A stretch of 64,000 nucleotides of DNA, from contig NW_002476375.1 of NCBI RefSeq assembly GCF_000189635.1, positions 311,479 through 375,478 of the forward strand, written 5' to 3'. The translations under genes and the position numbers were made by a program. Shown in pieces: positions 40,001 to 53,800 of this stretch. Position 1 is the first letter of the stretch. Every line of letters starts with the position of its first letter. The notes beneath the pieces were generated by a model. That model was not told where the DNA came from, did no database searches, and saw nothing but the letters and a program-made list of their open reading frames with translations. This stretch comes from Tetrahymena thermophila SB210 (taxonomy: Eukaryota > Ciliophora > Oligohymenophorea > Hymenostomatida > Tetrahymenidae).

Positions 40001-43000
40001 TTACAAGAGAATTAGCTGAGAGCTCTCTTTCAGGTCTCTATTTGAGTTTTGAGTTATTAAGGGTCAAATTTTAATTTGAAAGAGTGTTTTACTAGCTGTT
40101 TACAGAAGTGTTTAGTTGATTTAGGTTTGGTTTCATTTAAATGTAATCTGTTTCTAGCTTCTTTTTGATTTCTTCTTGTATCTTCAAGTGATCTTTGAAA
40201 AATCTGCCTGGATTGTAGCTTTCAGGTTCTTAACCACTAGCTTAGTTTTTAGTGTTTTATTTTAAGAATTTCAAATAATTAATATCTAACCCATCCTTCC
40301 CATTTCCTCTTGGTGTTAATGATTTTCCTCCATTTGGTTAACTTTCTCTATATGAAAGATTACCCTATGAAATAGCGTGTTCAATTAGCTATTTACTAGA
40401 GATTAAAGTAGACGATGCATTATTCTAATCAATTAATAAATTTTTATAAGAAGTTGACTCCACTTTAAAATGGTCACTTTACTCGTTACTGTTACTTTAT
40501 TTCTTTTGAAAGTTTAAATCAGGCTGATTTTTTGCTGTAAAAAAGGAATTATTTTATTCTATTCTCTGCAGACTTGGAATGCTTTCTCTATGATTAGAAG
40601 GGTATTTCAGATTAACAGTAATTATTTGAGGTTATTTATTTTGCTATTTATTTTATTGAAGTGATGTATGGATATTTTATGATTAAGGAGTTAACTATTA
40701 ATTTTAATTAGTTTTATGGTTGATAAATATGCTTTAGTTTGTGATACTACGGAATTCTTTAAAAGATTAGTGATTTAACTAAGAATCGAGTGGTTTATTA
40801 GTCTTTTCATCTTCACTTTCTGAGGTAGATGGTTAAAGAAGAGCTTACATCTTCAAATCCTAATTTCTATCATTCTCATTTGAGTCAAATTTTATACCAT
40901 TTCTCCTTGTGTTATTTTACTCTGATATTTTTTATAATTCAATGTTTCTATAGCTGTCAATTCTCTAAATATCTTAGGCATTTTGATTTAAATAATTTTA
41001 TTAGTAACTGTTTTCATAAATATCTCTACTGCTGTATTTTTTTAAAGTTAGGATTTAATTTGCTTTATTGTAGCTAATACTATCTGCATATGTAATTGAA
41101 TGCTCTCTTTTCTAAGAAAGCTATTAATCTTAGCTTCTTTACCCACTTAAGTTAAGAAAAGAGCTATTGTTCGAATTCTTTTCTCTCCAACTCTTATTTA
41201 TCAAATCTCTTGCACTATCTGTTGTAAAAATTCTTTCACGAGTACTTGGGAAGTAATTATTAGATTGAGCGCATCTTTTTTATCTAGTTTTGTGTTTAGT
41301 AGTGCTTACTGGAGAATTAGTACCAAAATTATTGAACCACTCAAGTGTTCCATGATGAGTTTTTATCAACTCAAATAAAGGAATTTAATTATTTTTGCAT
41401 TTTTTGTATTTAATTCCACATTCATAAAGGAGCCTTCTTGTCACTTTGAATTTTTTAATTTCCCTCAAAAACAAGACCTTTAAATTAAAAAATATATTTA
41501 AATTATTTATAAAAATCATATTGATTACATGAGAAACTGGATACTCAGATATTTTTTCTTGGAGATATTCATAAATTTCTTCTTATGATTTTAGCTGTAA
41601 AATATTTTTTTTGTGGACAGACAAAAGGGCTATAACAGCTTTAATGATTATTTTAAATCCTTTAAATATGAAAAGATTTAATATTTTAATCATCAGTTAC
41701 ACATCCAAGTCATTAGCAAAGAAAGAAAGTACCCACCTTTGTATCGTAATTTCATATTAAACACTGAATATTTTCTTATTTTAATTTATTAAAATTATCT
41801 TTTTTGCCTTAAAAATCATATTTAAAATAATACCATGTGATTAAACAAATCTGGAATGAAATTCTTAAAAAAACAAGAAGCCTAAAAAGTGAATAACTCT
41901 AAGTTTTAAAATTAATCAAGAAAAAGAGACGCCAAGTTATATTTTTCAAGAATTTGTTTGGTAACCCAGTAAGTCTCTTCAGGTGGCATAATGCTGAGAA
42001 GGATAGCAGCTATATAATTAATTCCTTGAATGTATCCAAGCTATGAATTAGAGGAAGAAATAGCTTTTAGAATCTAATTCAAACAAATTTTGCTAATAAT
42101 TTAAATAATGTAAGATTAGTTTGCAGAAATAATTAAATCAAATTTAAATCTACTGGATTAAAAATATGTAAAAAATAATAATAAGTATTTCCAAATTAGA
42201 TAAGAAAAGCACTAACTTACTTGCGTACAGATTTAAAGAATTCTTGATCTTAAAATGTGCGTTCAACATCATTTTGAATAACTTCTTCATACTCATTTTT
42301 CAACTTACTGAAATGCTAAAATATAAAAGAGTAGGATGTTATTTATTGCAATAATTGTAAAAGTCAAATTATACCTGAAATTATTAGGTTAATAGCTTCC
42401 TATTTTAGTCGATTTGCATTGCATAATTGAACATGCTTTAATAATATATTATATTTTCCTAATTATATATAAATTTGAAAATTAATACCTCAACATTTTA
42501 ACAGACAAAGTAATAAAAATAGATTGATTATTTTAATATGATATTGCCCTTTTAAGAAGTAACATAAAACTTCGTTACAGAGGCGAATGGATTATAAAGG
42601 AATAATATTAATTTTCTCAATACTAAATTTATTAAATTCTTCTTGGATGAATTGGGCATTCATAAGTTTAATATTTATTATATTTAGAATATTATTTACA
42701 TTAGTAATGAGGAACTCCATTCTACTTTCTATAATAGGCTTAAATTTATTATCACGAAATTATCTTGAGACTTAGAGTAACTTAAAGATTTCTGTAGGTT
42801 AAAGGTAATTAAGCACTAGCTTGAAAAGCATTTCATAGAAAAGTTATTTGTTGTTCTAAGCAGCCATATAGGCCTTTGCTTTGAGATAAATCGATTTATT
42901 ATAGAACTATTCAAGTATTTTCCAAGCTAATTTTGTATTTTTGCATTCATTTAGACCTTTCTCTTTTAAATTTGCTAGGTAGCTGTTACTTTATCATTTC

Positions 43001-43320
43001 AAAAAATAGTAAATTTTTAACGAATTTGCTAAAGCTAAATTGATTTTCATTAAAAGAATTTTGTCAAGAAGAAGTACTTAAATTTAGTTTTGATTATAAA
43101 TTCAATAATTTGCTTACTTATTTAAAGATGGTTTTTCAAGAGAATAGCGTAGCTTCATTTACTAAAATTGGTGATTTGACTCATCAAAATTTTGATCATC
43201 GTAAATGCATTCTGTATTTTGGTTATAATTAGTAGAAATTAAACTTTTCATTGAAACGCTCATATAGGAACCTGCAGCTATATCCTCTTATTTTAAATTC
43301 CTACTACTATCATTTTGCAT
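37032..43320 (-). CDS. TBC-domain Rab GTPase-activating protein with giant N/Q-rich tail
   Basis: Seven exons: 43118-43320, 42571-42988, 42375-42458, 42221-42315, 41834-42092, 41529-41774, 37032-41477, giving 1916 residues. The TBC domain spans about residues 210-440: the arginine-finger motif is VIQNDVERTF (IxxDxxR, Arg254) and the glutamine-finger motif is GYIQGINYIAAILL (YxQG, Gln289), followed by the W-LSFFANDLDV block. Both catalytic residues of TBC RabGAPs are present, so it probably stimulates GTP hydrolysis on a Rab in vesicle traffic. Upstream lies a helical region (residues 70-200). The last exon encodes some 1480 residues without TGA; after about residue 470 these are overwhelmingly Asn, Gln and Ser with long N and Q runs. 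The exon 2/3 splice is the least certain; the 51-nt intron at 41478-41528 is a stopless multiple of three. Short plus-strand ATG frames here are shadows. Confidence 0.85.
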
Positions 43321-45096
43321 ATTTATCATACCTGTTACTATATGTAAATATGTGAGCTAAAATCCTGCTGATGGTTATAACCTTTTAAACTTTGTGCTAT
43401 AAAATAAACAGCTCCCTTTCTAACTAATTAATTTGCTATTTTTGATATTTGTAGTTATAAATTAAAGCTTTTTTAGGATTAATTAAAAATATTACATTCA
43501 AAATGCTATTGATACGAAAACTAAAACGAAATTAACAAAATAAATTTTTGCAAGTAATTAATTAGAGCCTTTATAAATTATTAAATTGAGGATTACATGA
43601 AAAATACAAATTATTAATTAAGCAAAAATACAATGAAAATTTAATTTAGTTCAACTTTTTTAATTGATTCTAATTTACAGAGAGCTGATCTTTTTTTCAA
43701 AATTGATAAACTTTTAAAATCCATGTTCCTTAAAAAATATTTTAATCTCAATTAAATCACACTCATTATTAAAAATTTAAAATTACTTTGATTTGAATTT
43801 AAAAAAAGCTTAATTTCCAATTTTATTTTTGTATTTTGGTATTTTTTGGTAAATTAATTTAAATTTAAAAAAAAAAAATACTTTTTAGAATTAATTCATA
43901 AAAATTAAACTTAAAATATTTTGCTCAATATTTGGAATTACTAATCAATAAATTAGCTTTTAAATTTGAAAATTTTAATTGAAAGTCGATTTGTAATAAA
44001 ATTGTTGAATATATATTTTTTGTTTCTTCTTATTAAAATAACGTTAGATCAAATTAAAATGAAAGATAACCAAACATTATTTTTGAAAAATGGATTGATC
44101 ACATTTAATTCCTATCTTCTCTCAAATTTTAAAAAAATTAAAAAATATAATTTTGCTTTAAATAATTTAACTTTTTATTTATTTATGAATGTAATTTTGT
44201 GCTATTTATTTCCTCATATATATCACTCATTTGGATATTTGGATGAGTAATTTATATTAATTAAATTGTAATTTAATAACTTGATTTATTTGTTTATTTA
44301 TTTATTTAATTTTCGCTCTATGCTTATTTCCTTTTAATGATGACTATCCAAATCAGTGCTTAATAAAATCTTTTAAATCCTATTTCATAGCTTATGAAGA
44401 AGTTTAAAGGGTGAAATAGAACTTGCTATATACTATTTTTAAGCTCCATCTTCTAAATCTATATAGAATCACTCTCTTAAATGTTTTTGCTTGAAAAAAA
44501 ACTATGAATGCTTTATAAAAAGATATGTTTTAATAAAGTAAAAATAATAATTATAATGCTATTTTGTGTGTTCAATGATTGATAGATATTTAGATAGTTA
44601 TTTTAAGTATAAATTTGAGTGAATTGATTGATTGGTATCATGCATATTCAACAAGAGGAAAATAATAATCGAAATTGCAAAATATTTAGTAAGAGAAGAA
44701 TAAGATAATATAAGATGATTTTGTTCCAATTAAGCTTAAGAATAACAATGAAGAATGAATATATTAGTTATCATTTTTATTTGCAATAATACATGAGTAA
44801 AAATGTGTTAGTAGTTAGATGCTAAGTAATTTATTTATAATAATGAATAGCTTTAAATTTGCTTGAAGTATATCTAATGAATATCATTACTATTTCCTAG
44901 ATTTGCTTACTTGAGTCATACCCTAATGATGATTTTCCAAATTAATTTGTAATTAACCTATTTTTTGCTATGCTATTTTAGATTAATGCTAATAAAGATC
45001 ACGACAACCATAATGATATTGCAATTAGCACTTCCTAATTATTCATTTTTGCTATATACTTCAACTACTATTGCTATAATTTTTTAAATTGTTAAA
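43321..45096. other. AT-rich intergenic DNA
   Basis: Upstream of the TBC gene and downstream of the carrier gene. A 94-codon plus-strand frame (43966-44250) is hydrophobic and AT-driven and not supported as a gene. The stretch just downstream of the carrier (44860-45096) is less AT-biased and may be its 3' UTR. Confidence 0.55.
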
Positions 45097-46053
45097 TCAA
45101 ATTTGCCATTCCTTGAGGCCAGCCTTTCTCTTCCAGTCAGAGGTAATTTTATCAGTGATGAAAACGGTAGTCCAAGCATAAAGGAAAGTACGAATGTAGA
45201 AGGCGTAGAAACCAACATAGAAACCGCTAATACCTTCGTGTTAGATTAATTTTTTGGCAGCATCAGCCCAACCAGAATAAGTTAATCTATTTTTAGTAGG
45301 GTCAGCGTTTTGAGCATAGAGACGAGTTCTAATATTATCGAAGGGAAGAGTGGCAACACTACCCCAGAAGGAGGCCCAGAGAAGTGCAGCATATTTATTC
45401 CAGGTCATATCACCAAAAGTAATCCAAATCTTTTCATTTAAATAATCAAAAGGACCAGTCAAACTGATGTTAAGGATGACGGCTCTAAGAACGTTGGCGT
45501 AGGAACCTCTGAAGAGGGCGGCATTACCACCTTCAGTGGCAGCAATCTTGTTGATACCGTCCATTAAACCTTTATATCCCCATCTCCATTCCTTGGGCTT
45601 ACCACCTTCAGCGATGGTACGAGTATTGACTAAATCAGCAGGAGATGTTAAAAATGCAGCCAAACCACCTGCAAAACCAGCGATAACACCCTTTTCTCTA
45701 TGAGAAAGATCATTATGGGCCTTGACTGGCTTGGTTCTATCGTAAATAATCTTATAGGTAAGATTTCTGATGAAGAGGTAGCTCAAACGACCAATTAAGT
45801 GGGACTCAAAACCTTGGTAGAAACCGCGTAATCCGTTACCAGTGGCATGAATCTCACGGAATACTTTGTTGGGATTGATACCCATGTATAAGTTCTTGCT
45901 ACGAATACCAACTCCTTCAGTTCTAATTTGGGATCTTACCTTAACGAATTCGATAGGATAAGTAAGGGCAGCTGAAATAGTATTAACAGATAATGACAAT
46001 CCGATTACTTCAGCTGTTGAGGGCTCCCAGTATCTTTTGTATGAGTAATTCAT
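45097..46053 (-). CDS. Mitochondrial carrier, 2-oxoglutarate/malate type
   Basis: A single exon of 318 residues. The frame passes one in-frame TAA (Gln271) and ends at TGA. It shows three tandem carrier repeats: PIEFVK (residues 33-38), PADLVNTR (138-145) and PFDNIR (237-242) are the P-x-[DE]-x-x-[KR] signatures at the end of each odd helix, with GFYQG, ALFRG and GFYVG in the matching loops. In the second repeat the basic residue is displaced (N143, then R145), as in oxoglutarate carriers, whose second repeat also departs from the consensus; TRTIAEGGKP resembles their RMTADG segment. It is therefore likely an inner-membrane exchanger of dicarboxylates. The codons are strongly biased (CAA for Gln, many GCC/ACC/GGT) compared with neighbours, a sign of high expression. 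No N-terminal presequence, as is usual for the family. Confidence 0.93.
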
Positions 46054-47675
46054 CTCTTTATATTGAAATTGCTTTTATTTTTCTGCTTTACCAAAATTTG
46101 GCTATTCTTCTTTTCCTTCTTCTTAATTTTTCTTTTTGAAATTCTTTCAAAATAATTAAGATATTTCATATAATTTATATCAATCTCCAATACAGTCATT
46201 ATTATTTGCAATCTTTTTTTATTTATTTATAATTAATTGAAATCCTCATTATACTAAGATGTTTCTCTCTCCTCTATCAATCTATTTATCTATATATCAT
46301 TCCCTTTATCTGTCTTTCACTCTAAGCCTATCTAATATTCCTTCTTATCTTCTTTATTATTTTATTTATTTATTTATTGCTAGTTATTTGCAAAAAATAT
46401 TTGATAGCTACTACATACCTACTACCTACTTAATTTTCATTCATTTGTCGCGTTCTTTTCTTTATTTCTTTCATTCTTTTTTTTATTTATTTATTTTTTA
46501 TTGATTTGATATTTCGCATCAATTGATTCATTATATAAAACATTAAATATCTCTTGCATATTTTATTTATGAATGACCTTTATTTATTTCATAGATCAAA
46601 TGCAAATAAATCAATTTATAAAAAAGGATTGCTGAATTATTTATTATTTCTCATTTTATTTTTATTTTTCCCAATCTATTTTTTAACATTCACTTGTTTG
46701 TTCATATTATGTTTTTAGATAATATTTTTAAATAATCAGATCTTCATGATAAAAATGTAGATTTTATTTAATAATATACTTTGTTCTACATTAAATTTGT
46801 ATTTCATTATATTCATTACATATAAGGACTTTGTTTACTTATATATTTACTTATAATAATAGTACAACAATTTTATAAAAAAGAGTATTTTTTATTTGGA
46901 AATATTATCCTTTATTACTTAAGTTAAAAATGTTGTTTTTATGAATTAAAATAAATTAAAGATATTGCATAATCTTTAAAATTAGTTGTAATAAACATTA
47001 TTAAGTAAAAAATTGTTTCCTAATTTAGTTTCTATTAAATAATTACCTCATCATTTAATATAGACCAAGTAAAATAAAATTTATTTTTTTGATAATCATT
47101 TGAAAAATTTACTTAAACATAATATTACTGTTATTGACTTCATCAAAATGTTAAACTAAACTTATTTTGATGCGATTATACCAATTAAATTTAATTTATT
47201 TGGTTGATCTTTAGATAAAATTAACCATTAAATTATTTCAAAATAAAATTTAATTAAAATTTGAATTTTATTTTTAATGAAACTTTTTTAAAAGTTAAAA
47301 TATTTATTGTTTAATTTGAATTAAATTTGTTAATTTAATTATCATTTGTTCAAATTTGAATAAAATCTTTTAGATACTTATTTTGAAATGATGAGCTATC
47401 TATATTGAGATTAAGCAAAATTAGATAATTTATTTACTTAGATTTCAAACTTAAAATATACTTTTGAAGAAAAATAATAATAATAAAATATGGTAGAAAT
47501 ACAAAAATTAAAAAATAGATTGATATACACTTAAAAATAGATGGATGAATAGATAATTGATTAATTATTTGCAAACAAAAGATTGGACATAATTAAATAA
47601 ATAATTTTTTATTTAAAGATTTAACTATTATATTTTATTAATTAATAGATTAAAAGTTAATTATTAAAAAAATGT
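46054..47675. other. AT-rich intergenic DNA with pyrimidine-rich repeats
   Basis: Promoter side of the carrier gene. Bases 46259-46500 are a pyrimidine-rich low-complexity tract (TCTATCTATTTA-type words) that produces an artefactual plus-strand frame. The rest is A/T with no gene. Confidence 0.6.
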
Positions 47676-50311
47676 TCATTTTGCCTTTTTGTTAAGAGCT
47701 GAATTATATATTTTTTTGCATGATTCTAATAAATTTTTAATACCAAATATAACATTTGGGTCTCTTTAGGGTCCGCCCTCTGGGTGGTCGCCAACATAAT
47801 TAAAATCAATATATTTGAAAGCATAAGAATTGTTGGTATTATCAACAATAGCCATAATTGAAGAAGCTATAAACTAACGAGTATTGACATTTTCATGGAA
47901 GTCAAGCAATTCTTCCAAAAATTTAATAAACTCTTAAAGTGGAACAATATTAATCTAATCAAAGTGTGATGTGTTTGAAGAAAAAAGCTTTTTAATATAT
48001 TAATGGATTTCTTTCAATGACAAACAAAGTAGATAGGTTCCTTTCTTCAATATCTCAACAGGGATACCTAAGTCATTTTTTAAAAGTGCACCACTTAGGC
48101 GATATCCGTACTAGCGAGAAGTGCTCTTGGTATCTTTTTTATCTGCTTGCTTTTATTTTTCTGCACTATATGAACTATGAAGTGTTGTGCGACCTAATTT
48201 AAAATCAATAATTGAACCCTTTGATCTTCCAAAATTTAAATTTTCGAGTACAACATATTCATTGTTATTGTAATTTTCAATTCCAATTAATTTTGGTAAG
48301 AATTTCTTGAGTTTTTCATTTTCTTCTTTATATTTTGAATTAGGATTATTCAAGTCTTTATAGAATGCTATTTCATTTTTTTTACATTTTTTCCAAAGCT
48401 AATCACCTTTTATCATGAAGTTTAATTCATGTCCAGCTGATATTTATGATGTCTCAGTAACATTCCTTATCATTTATTTATCAAACTAATTTCCAAACTC
48501 TCCTAACATTTTCCAGTATTAGCCATATTCCTATAAGCATTACTTAACTGCATTAAATCCTACAATATTTGGCTAAATGCGATCCTTTAATTCCTAAATG
48601 CTGCATTTTCTTTATCCCTTTTCCAAAGGAAAAGCTTCTCCTGTTAGTGTTCTAAGAACAGACTCTGCAGCCCAGCTAATACTTTCTAAGTTATATCCTC
48701 CCTCTAATACTACTAATATATTTTTACCATTAGTTATATCCATTAATCTTCTAGTCAAATATCTATATTATTAAAATTTAAATTAAATATATAATATAAT
48801 TTCTTATAAAAATAGATTCATTTTTATTTTTAAACTTTCTTGATTTCTTTTTAGTTAAAGTAATTAGTCTTAAAATAAATGAAAATAAAGTAGCTCTTTT
48901 AAATACAAAGATTTACAATAAGTAAATTCATTTGAAGTCTAATGTTTTTAATTTTAAGTTATAATTAAGATTTAGTCAGTATGTTCTATTTTACAACGCT
49001 TTAAATTAAAATTAAATTCTAAGATTAATAAAGATAGTATTATTAATCAAATTTTGCTGTTTATTTTAAATCCCTCTAAAAAATAGATTTTTGCCCAGCA
49101 AAATAATTAATTAGTAAAATTTAAAGGGCTGATTTAAAAGTACAAATTTGTATTTTATTTATTCTTTAGGGCTATTGAAAAAATTAATAGCTTTACAAAA
49201 AGATTATTTCATTATGATTTTAAAATGATTAATTAATGAATGAATGGAAAATTACGCATATCCTTCATAAGTGAGTTTGCACTGTCCTAATGGATCCCCT
49301 TCAGCAGAATCAAAGCCAGCAGATATCAAAATAAACTCTGGCTGAAACTCTTAAATAATAGGAAAAGCTATTCTTTCAAAAGCATATATATACTCATCAG
49401 TACCTGCAGTGAGTGCATTTTAACTATATCCTATATCCCATGGGATATTTATCTTGAAACCTTTGCCTTCTCCTGATCCGTTATTAGTTACTGAGCCACT
49501 TTGGGGATAGAATGATCCTGTTTTAAAATGATTAATTATTTTTTGTATTTATATGCAAATATCTATAAATAAAGACATATTTAGTTTTATTAAAAAGATA
49601 AAAATTATTTCTTAAAAGTGCCAAAATACAAGCTAAGATATCAAATCAATTTTAGGTAAAATTACCATCGTCATGCCTGTGCATGGATACAAATAGAACG
49701 TTAGGATCATCCTAGAAAATGTGCTAGGTACCATCTCCGTGATGAATATCCCAGTCAAATATAAGAACCTTTTTAACTCCATGATTCTTTTAAAGATATT
49801 TTGCTGCAATTGCTACGTTGTTGAAGAAACAAAATCCTGTACAAACTTTTGATTCACCTGAATGATGACCAGGAGGTCTAATTATGCAGAAAGCGTTTTT
49901 CCATTACTTGCTAATAATTCTATCTACTGATTCGATAACGCCTCCAACACCTAAATATGCTGCATCTTTACTACTCTAATTGAAGTATGTATCAAGCATG
50001 TAGATTTCTTTCTTTTTTGTTTTTTCTGGCCACATGCCTTCAATAAACTCTATATAATTATCATCGTGAGCATATTTTACTATAGATTTTTCGGCTGGTT
50101 TGAGTTTATCTACAATATGGACAAGAGGTGATTTCAGCAACCCTTGGGTTGTTAAATGATTAAATATGCTTTAAAGTCTGGCTGGACATTCAACATGTTA
50201 TCTTACTGATTTGTGTTTTAACTGTTCTAAATCATAAACAACTCCTGTCTGTCCGTTTATATTCAATCCATTGAACTATTCTTCTATACCTTCTATATTA
50301 TCCTGTTGCAT
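47676..50311 (-). CDS. Histone deacetylase fused to inositol polyphosphate kinase
   Basis: Three exons, 49666-50311, 49256-49517 and 47676-48762, giving 664 residues. Residues 20-345 are a class II-type HDAC: ECPARL (41-46), RPPGHH (145-150), GFCFFNN (159-165), [11 protein letters not shown] (186-196), [30 protein letters not shown] (281-293) and LEGGYN (322-327). The Zn ligands (Asp186, His188-type motif, Asp of GFDSAEGD), the active-site HH pair and the catalytic Tyr are present. Residues 411-655 are an IPK-family kinase: [47 protein letters not shown] (PxxxDxKxG core, 487-496), [17 protein letters not shown] (SLL motif) and YIDFNYV...[11 protein letters not shown] (IDF motif). The junction (residues 345-411) lies inside exon 3, so no splice choice creates the fusion. 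It probably acts in the nucleus, coupling inositol phosphate phosphorylation to lysine deacetylation. The 3' intron of 493 nt is unusually long. Confidence 0.93.
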
Positions 50312-50845: not shown

Positions 50846-53800
50846 TCATATGAATACTTAAATAATTAAAAATAGTAGCACTAGAAATTTAGTGCTAAAT
50901 TCTAATTTGGTTCCAGTATTTATATCTAGTTCTAAATCTATATTCATTAATTAAAAATATTTAATTTTCACATTTTTTCTTTAAAGTAAATTAAATTTAC
51001 CTGAAGGTGAAGGAAGTGTTGTAAATTAAATTCTTACTATTTTGGATGCGTCCATTAAATCTGGGTATCCAGGCTGGACACTTCCTCCAATTATGTAAGC
51101 AAAATACTTTGAATTTGGTTTAAGGTTACGTAGAGTTAAGTTAAATTAAGTATATCCTTAGCTTACTTCTACATATCCGCTAGGTGCTTTAATGTTTGTA
51201 TGGTCATAACCCCAATAAATTTAATCAGGATAAGGAGAGGGCTAGGTATTTGAGACATATAACTCTCCAGTCACATAAACAAATCCTGGTTAGTCTAAGA
51301 CGACTGTGAAATTAGCAGTAGACCAGTCATTAGACAAAAATTAAGGAGGCTAAATAAAATTAGGATAGTAGGATACAAATGTGTTTGGGATTACTAAATA
51401 CGAGCTATCATAAGTGGGCATTGCAGCTTTCAGCAATACAGTTTTATTGTTCAAAGAATTAGCTAAAGTTAATGGCGAAGGATAATACTCTACGAGTCTA
51501 TTTGAAGATATTTAGATGTTCAGTAAAGTATAAATTGAAGTCGAAACATCTAATATTCTATTAGCCTTTTATCTTTTTTAATTACCTTGATTATCTGTAG
51601 TTTCTTAAATTTGGTTTATTTAATCAGCTAATTGTGTGCTTTACAGAATTCTACTTGAGCTAGTACTTGAGGAGGTATTATTAAAATAATATTTCTAGAT
51701 GTACAAGCTATTTAATAAATTTGTAGTTATAAATTTAGTAAATTTTTTTTAATTAATAAGCGAAAACGAAAACAACCAATTCAAAAATAATATTAATAAA
51801 AATTGATGATATAAAATTAAAATTAAAATTAATTTATTTAAATTTCTATTTATTAATTTACGTATTCAAATCAATAGTTAAAATATTCGATAAATTAATA
51901 AGCACGCTCTTGATTTCAGTAGCTGATAGTTAAAGGACTTAGAATCTCAGACTAAATGTTGCGGCATTATATCGATCTTTTTGTTAATGATGTTAATTAG
52001 TGATAAAATTTACTTTAAATTAAATTTACTGCTTGTGACAAAAGTTAGAGTCTTATTTGCAACATTATTTCCTCTATCTTAGAAAAATAGATGGATGATA
52101 TAAGGAGTTTGGGCAGTGAGGTTTGTTATGTTAAAGTAAAAGTTTGCATTAGCTTAATTTAAGACTAATTATCCATATTAGCTTTAAGTAGTATTGGCAG
52201 GAGGAGCAGTTTTATTAAAAACTTAAGAGAAGCTTGGATATGATGTTCCATTTAAACTACACATATAGTAAACTACAGTTGGTTCATTAGTCATAACGTT
52301 AATTTAAACACTATTTTTTAATATATTAACTGTCTGAAGCTAAATAATTTGAGGTGCTATGTTATCAGCCGCTATTAAATTGAAGTACATTTAAGTATAT
52401 TGTAGTTAAAATATAGTTGAATCTATTCCCAATAATGAGAAAACTATAGAACCTCTTGAAACAGATGAACTAGTATTATTTGTAGGAGTAGAAATAACTC
52501 TAAAACTGAGCTAGTTTATTCCTTTGGTGAAATTTAGCATTTAAGTACTTAATGAAATTCCTGGATACTAAGAGGCTAAATTCATATGGACTTCAAAATA
52601 AATATCAGATGCATAAGTCACAGAAAGTATTGTGTCTAAAGAAGTTCCTCCATAAGGAATATCTAAGATAGAGTTCATGAGCACAGTTTAAACTATTGAT
52701 TCAAACAAAAATTATATAATTTATTATAAAATTTTTTTTTTGGCTATTTAACAAAAATTAAAAAAGATAAAATAAAAAAAGAAAGAAAATTAGTTTCAAG
52801 CTATTTTCTTTTTTAAAATATAAAATTTAGTAAATGTTTAGTTAGTGAATTAATATATATTTTTCATTTTAATTAGTTTAATTAAAATTTATATTACTAA
52901 TAAAACTATTCAAATCTTTGATTTTTAAAAGGAACATTTGTGTTAAATTTGTTTTATTAATTTAATTGTATTAAATAAAATATTAAAGATTTTTATAAAA
53001 ATTTTATCTTTAAGTTTCAAAATTTATTTAAAAATTAATTTTTTTTCCTGTTTTTAATAAAAACTAAAAAATTTGACTTACTTTTTTAATTTGATATCAT
53101 AATAATTTAATATCAACCTTAAAGTAAAAAATCAATAAATTTTAAATAATTTTAATAAGCTATAATTTTATTTTTTTTTTTTACTTGTAGGATTGAGGAT
53201 AGTAATTTAAGAAGTTTATATTGGTGTGTAGATGGGAGGCACATTATCTCCTAGTGTTACCCATTAGAGTGTATAAGAACCAGAAAATATTTATTATGGG
53301 CAGGATATTCTGAAAGGGATGGATGTCTAACCTAGATGAATAGGAATGTCGAATGGGATTACTTTGAAACCTGGTAAGATATTTGGCTTTACACTTAACT
53401 CAAGTAATGAAGGGAAATCTAGTGTAATATATAGATCAACAGTTTATGTACCAGGGTAGAGTGAGATGCCTTAATCATTATTTACGTGAATCAGTGGACC
53501 AGGATAAACGTAGCTAAATGAAAATGGATCTAAATTTATGTAGCTTCTATCAATAATAATTTGGTTTATGCCATCAAATGAACTTACATAAAAGTTATCA
53601 GTAATTCCTTAGAAAGTAGGATTTAGAACCGACGCTATTGATACCTAAAGCTAACCAGAGAAATCTTGAGTATTACCTGTTACATTGTAACGATTTTGAA
53701 TGGTGTAACAATCTATAACCTAAGCGAAAGAAGCTGTTGTAGTTGTACAAGAGCCTCTTCCGTCTGAGACTTAATCAAATTAAGGAGGAAAATCTATAAA

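Follow-up and report, generated by a model that had tools for sequence, protein, structure and literature searches.

A single predicted gene of Tetrahymena thermophila, lying within the 64,000-nucleotide stretch of DNA analysed here (the window), specifies one protein in which a histone deacetylase (HDAC) is followed by an inositol polyphosphate kinase (IPK). The two domains stand in one frame, each was recognised by its Pfam profile (Table 1) and by comparison with PDB sequences, and the predicted gene confirms that their join is real. From its domain content, the species and the published descriptions, the gene is very probably THD2. The fusion is already known: it was reported in 2008 as Thd2, according to the available passages of later papers, and being a published protein it does not represent a new type of system. 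An earlier note on this DNA had described the same two domains and proposed profile searches, which found both; its coordinates, its limits for exon 3 and its motifs agree with our gene model. It had known of no described fusion of this kind, but two have been published, one in Tetrahymena (PMC5854132) and one as Plasmodium HDA2 (PMC12694804), both as related in the accessible parts of those papers.

Gene structure and neighbourhood

The coding sequence is 1995 nt long and in frame, and its product comprises 664 amino acids; the splice sites were inferred from sequence alone. GC content is 29-37% in the exons and 17% in the introns, as against 23.6% for the window. Glutamine is specified by TAA or TAG at 27 codons, and TGA occurs once, at the end of the coding sequence. 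A genome-wide IPK profile search recovered the copy in the window as a single stretch, free of TGA and containing both TAG and TAA.

Table 1. Features of the predicted fusion gene (window positions)
Feature	Position	Strand	Description
Three-exon gene	50311-47676	minus	script-built model, code 6 (TAA/TAG = Q, TGA stop)
Exon 1	49666..50311	minus	N-terminus, then the greater part of the HDAC catalytic domain
Intron 1	49518..49665	minus	148 bp, GT..AG, 17% GC
Exon 2	49256..49517	minus	HDAC domain
Intron 2	48763..49255	minus	493 bp, GT..AG, 17% GC
Exon 3, no interruption	47676..48762	minus	HDAC end (LEGGYN), linker, IPK domain, TGA stop
Pfam Hist_deacetyl span	48645..50197	minus	residues 39-342 (spliced), E 4.5e-100
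Pfam IPK (PF03770) span	47721..48257	minus	residues 472-650, E 1.1e-24
Candidate intron inside exon 3	48194..48385	minus	192 nt, A+T-rich, GT..AG; mechanical scan

Retention of intron 1 would end the product at 221 amino acids, and retention of intron 2 would yield a 395-amino-acid product lacking both LEGGYN and the kinase. Excision of the candidate intron in exon 3, which is one of four combinations listed below 24% GC, would preserve the frame (600 amino acids) with the loss of kinase residues ~429 to 492. This intron-like stretch may be a chance occurrence. Scans of the window for tRNA genes and for Rfam families each returned none.

Downstream of THD2 lies a mitochondrial carrier gene (PF00153; window 45097-46146, minus strand), whose product matches the 2-oxoglutarate/malate carrier in PDB entries 8bqs_DV (E 1.2e-218) and 7w5z_M2 (E 2e-218) over 318/319 residues; both entries are T. 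thermophila respiratory complexes. The telomerase RNA that Rfam recognised in the genome likewise resembles the T. thermophila one, and on these two grounds the species is very probably T. thermophila. Upstream, on the same strand, window 50849-52795 contains two long open frames of 339 and 282 amino acids, neither of which has a Pfam match at E 0.01.

The join of the two domains

Exon 3 alone encodes the end of the HDAC and all of the IPK, with no stop between the domains, and the junction thus lies inside this exon, uninterrupted by an intron, as had been noted earlier. The closing helix of the HDAC is probably formed by residues 366-389, as would be expected from class II structures. We likewise take the AGH motif to mark the start of the kinase, which would place the beginning of that domain probably near residue 412 (about 48437). 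Between helix and motif there remain residues 390-411, a linker of ~22 residues within one exon, in which an intergenic region could not be accommodated. The explanation that two genes had been mistaken for one was rejected. When exon 3 was scanned against non-eukaryote contigs, none of 12 pattern matches in viral contigs and none of 48 in genome contigs was confirmed as a relative.

The deacetylase half

The Hist_deacetyl profile was matched from end to end (positions 1-298 of 298; 335.3 bits against a cut-off of 27.9). The motifs RPPGHH, DxDxHHG, GFD and GGY, whose residues have zinc and catalytic roles, start at residues 145, 186, 281 and 322, respectively, the last within LEGGYN at residue 322. 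Among the best 60 of 143 PDB sequences, the closest agreement was with HDAC6 (E 2.5e-145), followed in order by HDAC15, Hda1, HDAC7/4, Clr3 and HDAC10. In the same 60, the rows for HDAC6, 4, 7, 10 and 15, Hda1 and Clr3 scored 218-489 bits, bacterial-type deacetylases or amidohydrolases also appeared, and there was no chain named HDAC1, 2, 3 or 8. Because the names matched are those of class II enzymes, the deacetylase half is assigned by sequence to class II (HDAC6/Hda1-like). A class I assignment was rejected, HDAC1/2/3/8 being absent from the best 60 of 143 matches.

Two arginines of the inositol phosphate pocket of class I enzymes appear to be missing. At the presumed places of HDAC3 R265 and R301 the protein has a proline (EGDPLG) and a glutamate (EGGYNLE), respectively. 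The four loci of class I type in this genome provide a weak control for this marker. At the R301 place they carry R (C428), Q (the C188 pair) and P (C247), and at the R265 place, which was covered in two of them, R (C428) and K (C247, near an exon end), so that as far as covered only one of the four has both arginines. As evidence against a class I-style pocket the two positions are only suggestive.

The kinase half

The IPK profile was matched over positions 1-188 of 190 (87.9 bits against a cut-off of 22.2). A Pfam search of the 664-residue product found no third family at E 0.01, and an NCBIfam search, with models made for prokaryote annotation, returned 0 families. IIDFKLG occupies residues 487-493, SIMA lies in ASSIMAIVD from residue 602, YIDFNYV lies in KYIDFNYV from residue 619, and a further motif begins at residue 637. 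With the motifs PxxxDxKxG, SLL and IDF as defined in PMC12694804, the catalytic motif reads GxxxDxKxG, retaining the aspartate and lysine, SIM stands in place of SLL, and IDF is kept. YGYRLSG is also retained.

Since the catalytic aspartate and lysine and the IDF motif are present and the profile is matched almost throughout, the kinase is predicted to be probably active. It may instead be weak or dead, because of the change of P to G in PxxxDxKxG and of SLL to SIM. Against the PDB, the C-terminal 275 amino acids matched an inositol polyphosphate multikinase (2iew, 1.2e-8) and, nearly equally, an inositol hexakisphosphate kinase (4o4c, 4.3e-8), which are yeast Ipk2 and an Entamoeba enzyme, respectively; the kinase is here treated as putatively of the Ipk2/IPMK type. 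A structure predicted for exon 3 alone (mean pLDDT 38.4, pTM 0.27) was too poor for use.

HDAC and inositol phosphate kinase genes in the genome

The 101-Mb genome, in which the window belongs to contig C162, was searched exon by exon, and the family counts are accordingly lower bounds. The HDAC profile gave 14 matches, which we grouped into at least seven genes: two on C188 and one each on C247, C428, C162 (THD2), C271 and C78. By their motifs four are class I-like and two class II-like (THD2 and the C271 gene), with the C78 gene falling elsewhere. A review lists three class I, two class II and two HDAC-like enzymes in Tetrahymena besides 11 sirtuins (PMC7339932, available passages); the non-sirtuin total of seven equals ours, and the class split is off by one.

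The second class II-type gene (L023, G000:C271; ~96051-96669 of the contig, minus strand) has the motifs RPPGHHS, FDFDVHHGDGTQ and LEGGYN, and is without an IPK match.

At least two IPK loci were found, THD2 on C162 and one on C304, and only the THD2 locus is accompanied by an HDAC; the genome-wide HDAC profile search gave no match on contig C304. The C304 locus (L018, G000:C304:37500-47400) lies at ~42465-44104 of its contig on the plus strand. Its motifs PCILDIKMG, SSLLLIYDG and LIDFANI are spread over two open frames, and IDF is preceded by a long insert. Searched against its own genome, the 275-residue kinase half found itself alone (E 10), as did a 44-residue segment from the C304 kinase. 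The genome also has inositol phosphate kinases of the ITPK type (C270) and the PPIP5K type (C158); the IPK1 type (PF06090) was not found, in a search that was silent in 14 of 14 controls as well.

Probable identity with Thd2 and relation to other proteins

Thd2, which is known to us by description, is like the protein studied here a class II HDAC joined to an IPK-family domain, described for Thd2 as IPMK-like, and comes from the same species. In the 2008 report (Smith et al. 2008, Eukaryot Cell 7:471-482) the major spliced form reportedly carries a putative IPK domain. Among the available passages of later papers, PMC5854132 attributes an IPMK domain to a Tetrahymena class II HDAC, with reference to Smith et al. 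2008, and PMC7339932 identifies THD2 as the class II HDAC of that study. According to the latter, Thd2 is micronuclear as judged by GFP and strips H3 and H4 of deposition-related acetylation, and upon THD2 deletion H3 and H4 acetylation persists in the micronucleus with a defect in H3 processing; the same paper has no occurrence of the word inositol. The same result is built upon in PMC13198579, and PMC2612030 describes Smith et al. 2008 as then the sole published case in which alternative splicing affected a reading frame in Tetrahymena (both in the passages available). The published passages on Thd2 or Smith et al. 2008 that were available contain no test of its kinase activity.

A protein of like design is P. 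falciparum HDA2 (PF3D7_1008000, HDAC2-IPMK2), described in the accessible part of PMC12694804 as a class II HDAC with a C-terminal IPK domain. With reference to Coleman et al. 2014 that paper calls the fusion indispensable for proliferation, and with reference to Stritzke et al. 2012 it calls the P. knowlesi IPMK2 kinase active; Tetrahymena is not mentioned (0 occurrences). PfHda2 is discussed without its kinase domain in the available text of PMC5061559, and that of PMC9286782 holds nothing on an HDAC-IPK fusion. By description, the two proteins share the order of the domains and their union in one polypeptide. They differ in that the HDA2 gene is intronless whereas the Tetrahymena gene has two introns, in that HDA2 keeps the canonical PxxxDxKxG where the Tetrahymena protein has GxxxDxKxG, and in that HDA2 alone has a further arginase-like/HDAC-superfamily domain, again going by the partial account available.

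HDAC6, HDAC10 and fungal Hda1 align with the Tetrahymena protein over the full length of the catalytic domain, and domain 2 of HDAC6 also has GDPLG, but unlike it their C-terminal parts are not a kinase. These three end instead in a ubiquitin-binding zinc finger (HDAC6), a second HDAC-like domain (HDAC10) or an Arb2 domain (Hda1). Yeast Ipk2/Arg82 and IPMK, which are stand-alone proteins, share with the kinase half the IPK family domain, the catalytic D and K, and IDF, but have PxxxDxKxG where it has GxxxDxKxG.

Proposed function

We lean towards a reading in which the kinase half works beside the deacetylase and its products act in trans. The deacetylase, as reported by others in the passages available, has newly deposited micronuclear histones as its substrate. 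The kinase half would make higher inositol phosphates beside this newly assembled chromatin, and these would influence, in trans, remodelling factors or others that work on chromatin, presumably without being a bound cofactor of the class II deacetylase itself.

The earlier note had instead argued from class I corepressor complexes that the kinase product might serve the attached deacetylase directly as a cofactor. Such complexes are indeed activated by inositol phosphates, with R265 of HDAC3 important for activation (PMC4848466, available passages; of the pocket positions it discusses R265 alone, R301, K25, H17 and G21 having 0 occurrences), and a fusion would put source and user together. 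The argument nevertheless fits poorly with a deacetylase that is class II by the best 60 of 143 PDB matches. HDAC3 activation needs R265, whose place is taken here by P, with E at the R301 place (presumed positions, own-genome control weak), and the cofactor idea is thereby weakened to one that we consider quite improbable. Alternatively, the kinase domain might have no catalytic role and serve to tether or stabilise the deacetylase, a part that the Arb2 domain may play in fungal Hda1. The loss of the P from PxxxDxKxG and SIM for SLL speak for this, and Q at that same P has been suggested to impair Plasmodium IPMK1 (PMC12694804, in part). The catalytic D and K, IDF and YGYRLSG are nevertheless retained along a nearly complete profile, and P. 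knowlesi IPMK2 is reported active in that paper, although with a canonical motif; a purely structural role appears unlikely to us.

It is very improbable that the locus mainly yields two separate proteins, through an internal promoter or an early-ending splice form, with the fusion minor or absent. Smith et al. 2008 is cited for alternative splicing that affects a reading frame in Tetrahymena (PMC2612030, in the part available). The kinase-free product of 395 amino acids expected from intron 2 retention and the 192-nt intron-like stretch of exon 3 would also suit such an arrangement, but no stop separates the domains and only residues 390-411 lie between helix and AGH motif. The major form, moreover, reportedly includes the kinase. 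An assembly chimera of two genes was rejected as having a negligible probability. Exon 3 does have a lower GC content (29%) than the other exons (34 and 37%), and the ratio of TAA/TAG to CAA/CAG glutamine codons is 16:8 up to residue 390 and 11:1 beyond it; yet the frame is continuous, third-position GC is similar on the two sides (0.256 and 0.230), and the published Tetrahymena protein, as briefly described in PMC5854132, has both domains. Our preferred reading remains the kinase role in trans, close to the deacetylase.

We suggest tentatively, and with some reserve, that the class II HDAC-IPK fusion may be one ancestral alveolate protein, represented by Thd2 in ciliates and HDA2/IPMK2 in apicomplexans, likened here by description. 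The literature searched, of which coverage was partial, held nothing that treats Tetrahymena, Plasmodium, histone deacetylase and inositol phosphate kinase together. If the suggestion is true, local inositol phosphate production would have been tied to chromatin deacetylation before ciliates and apicomplexans split, and a single ancestral origin of the Tetrahymena and Plasmodium proteins would mean that the coupling is old and under selection. The fusion offers a natural way to ask why inositol phosphate synthesis is linked to histone deacetylation, and in Tetrahymena, a laboratory organism that is harmless and has a reported micronuclear phenotype, the two activities could be separated.
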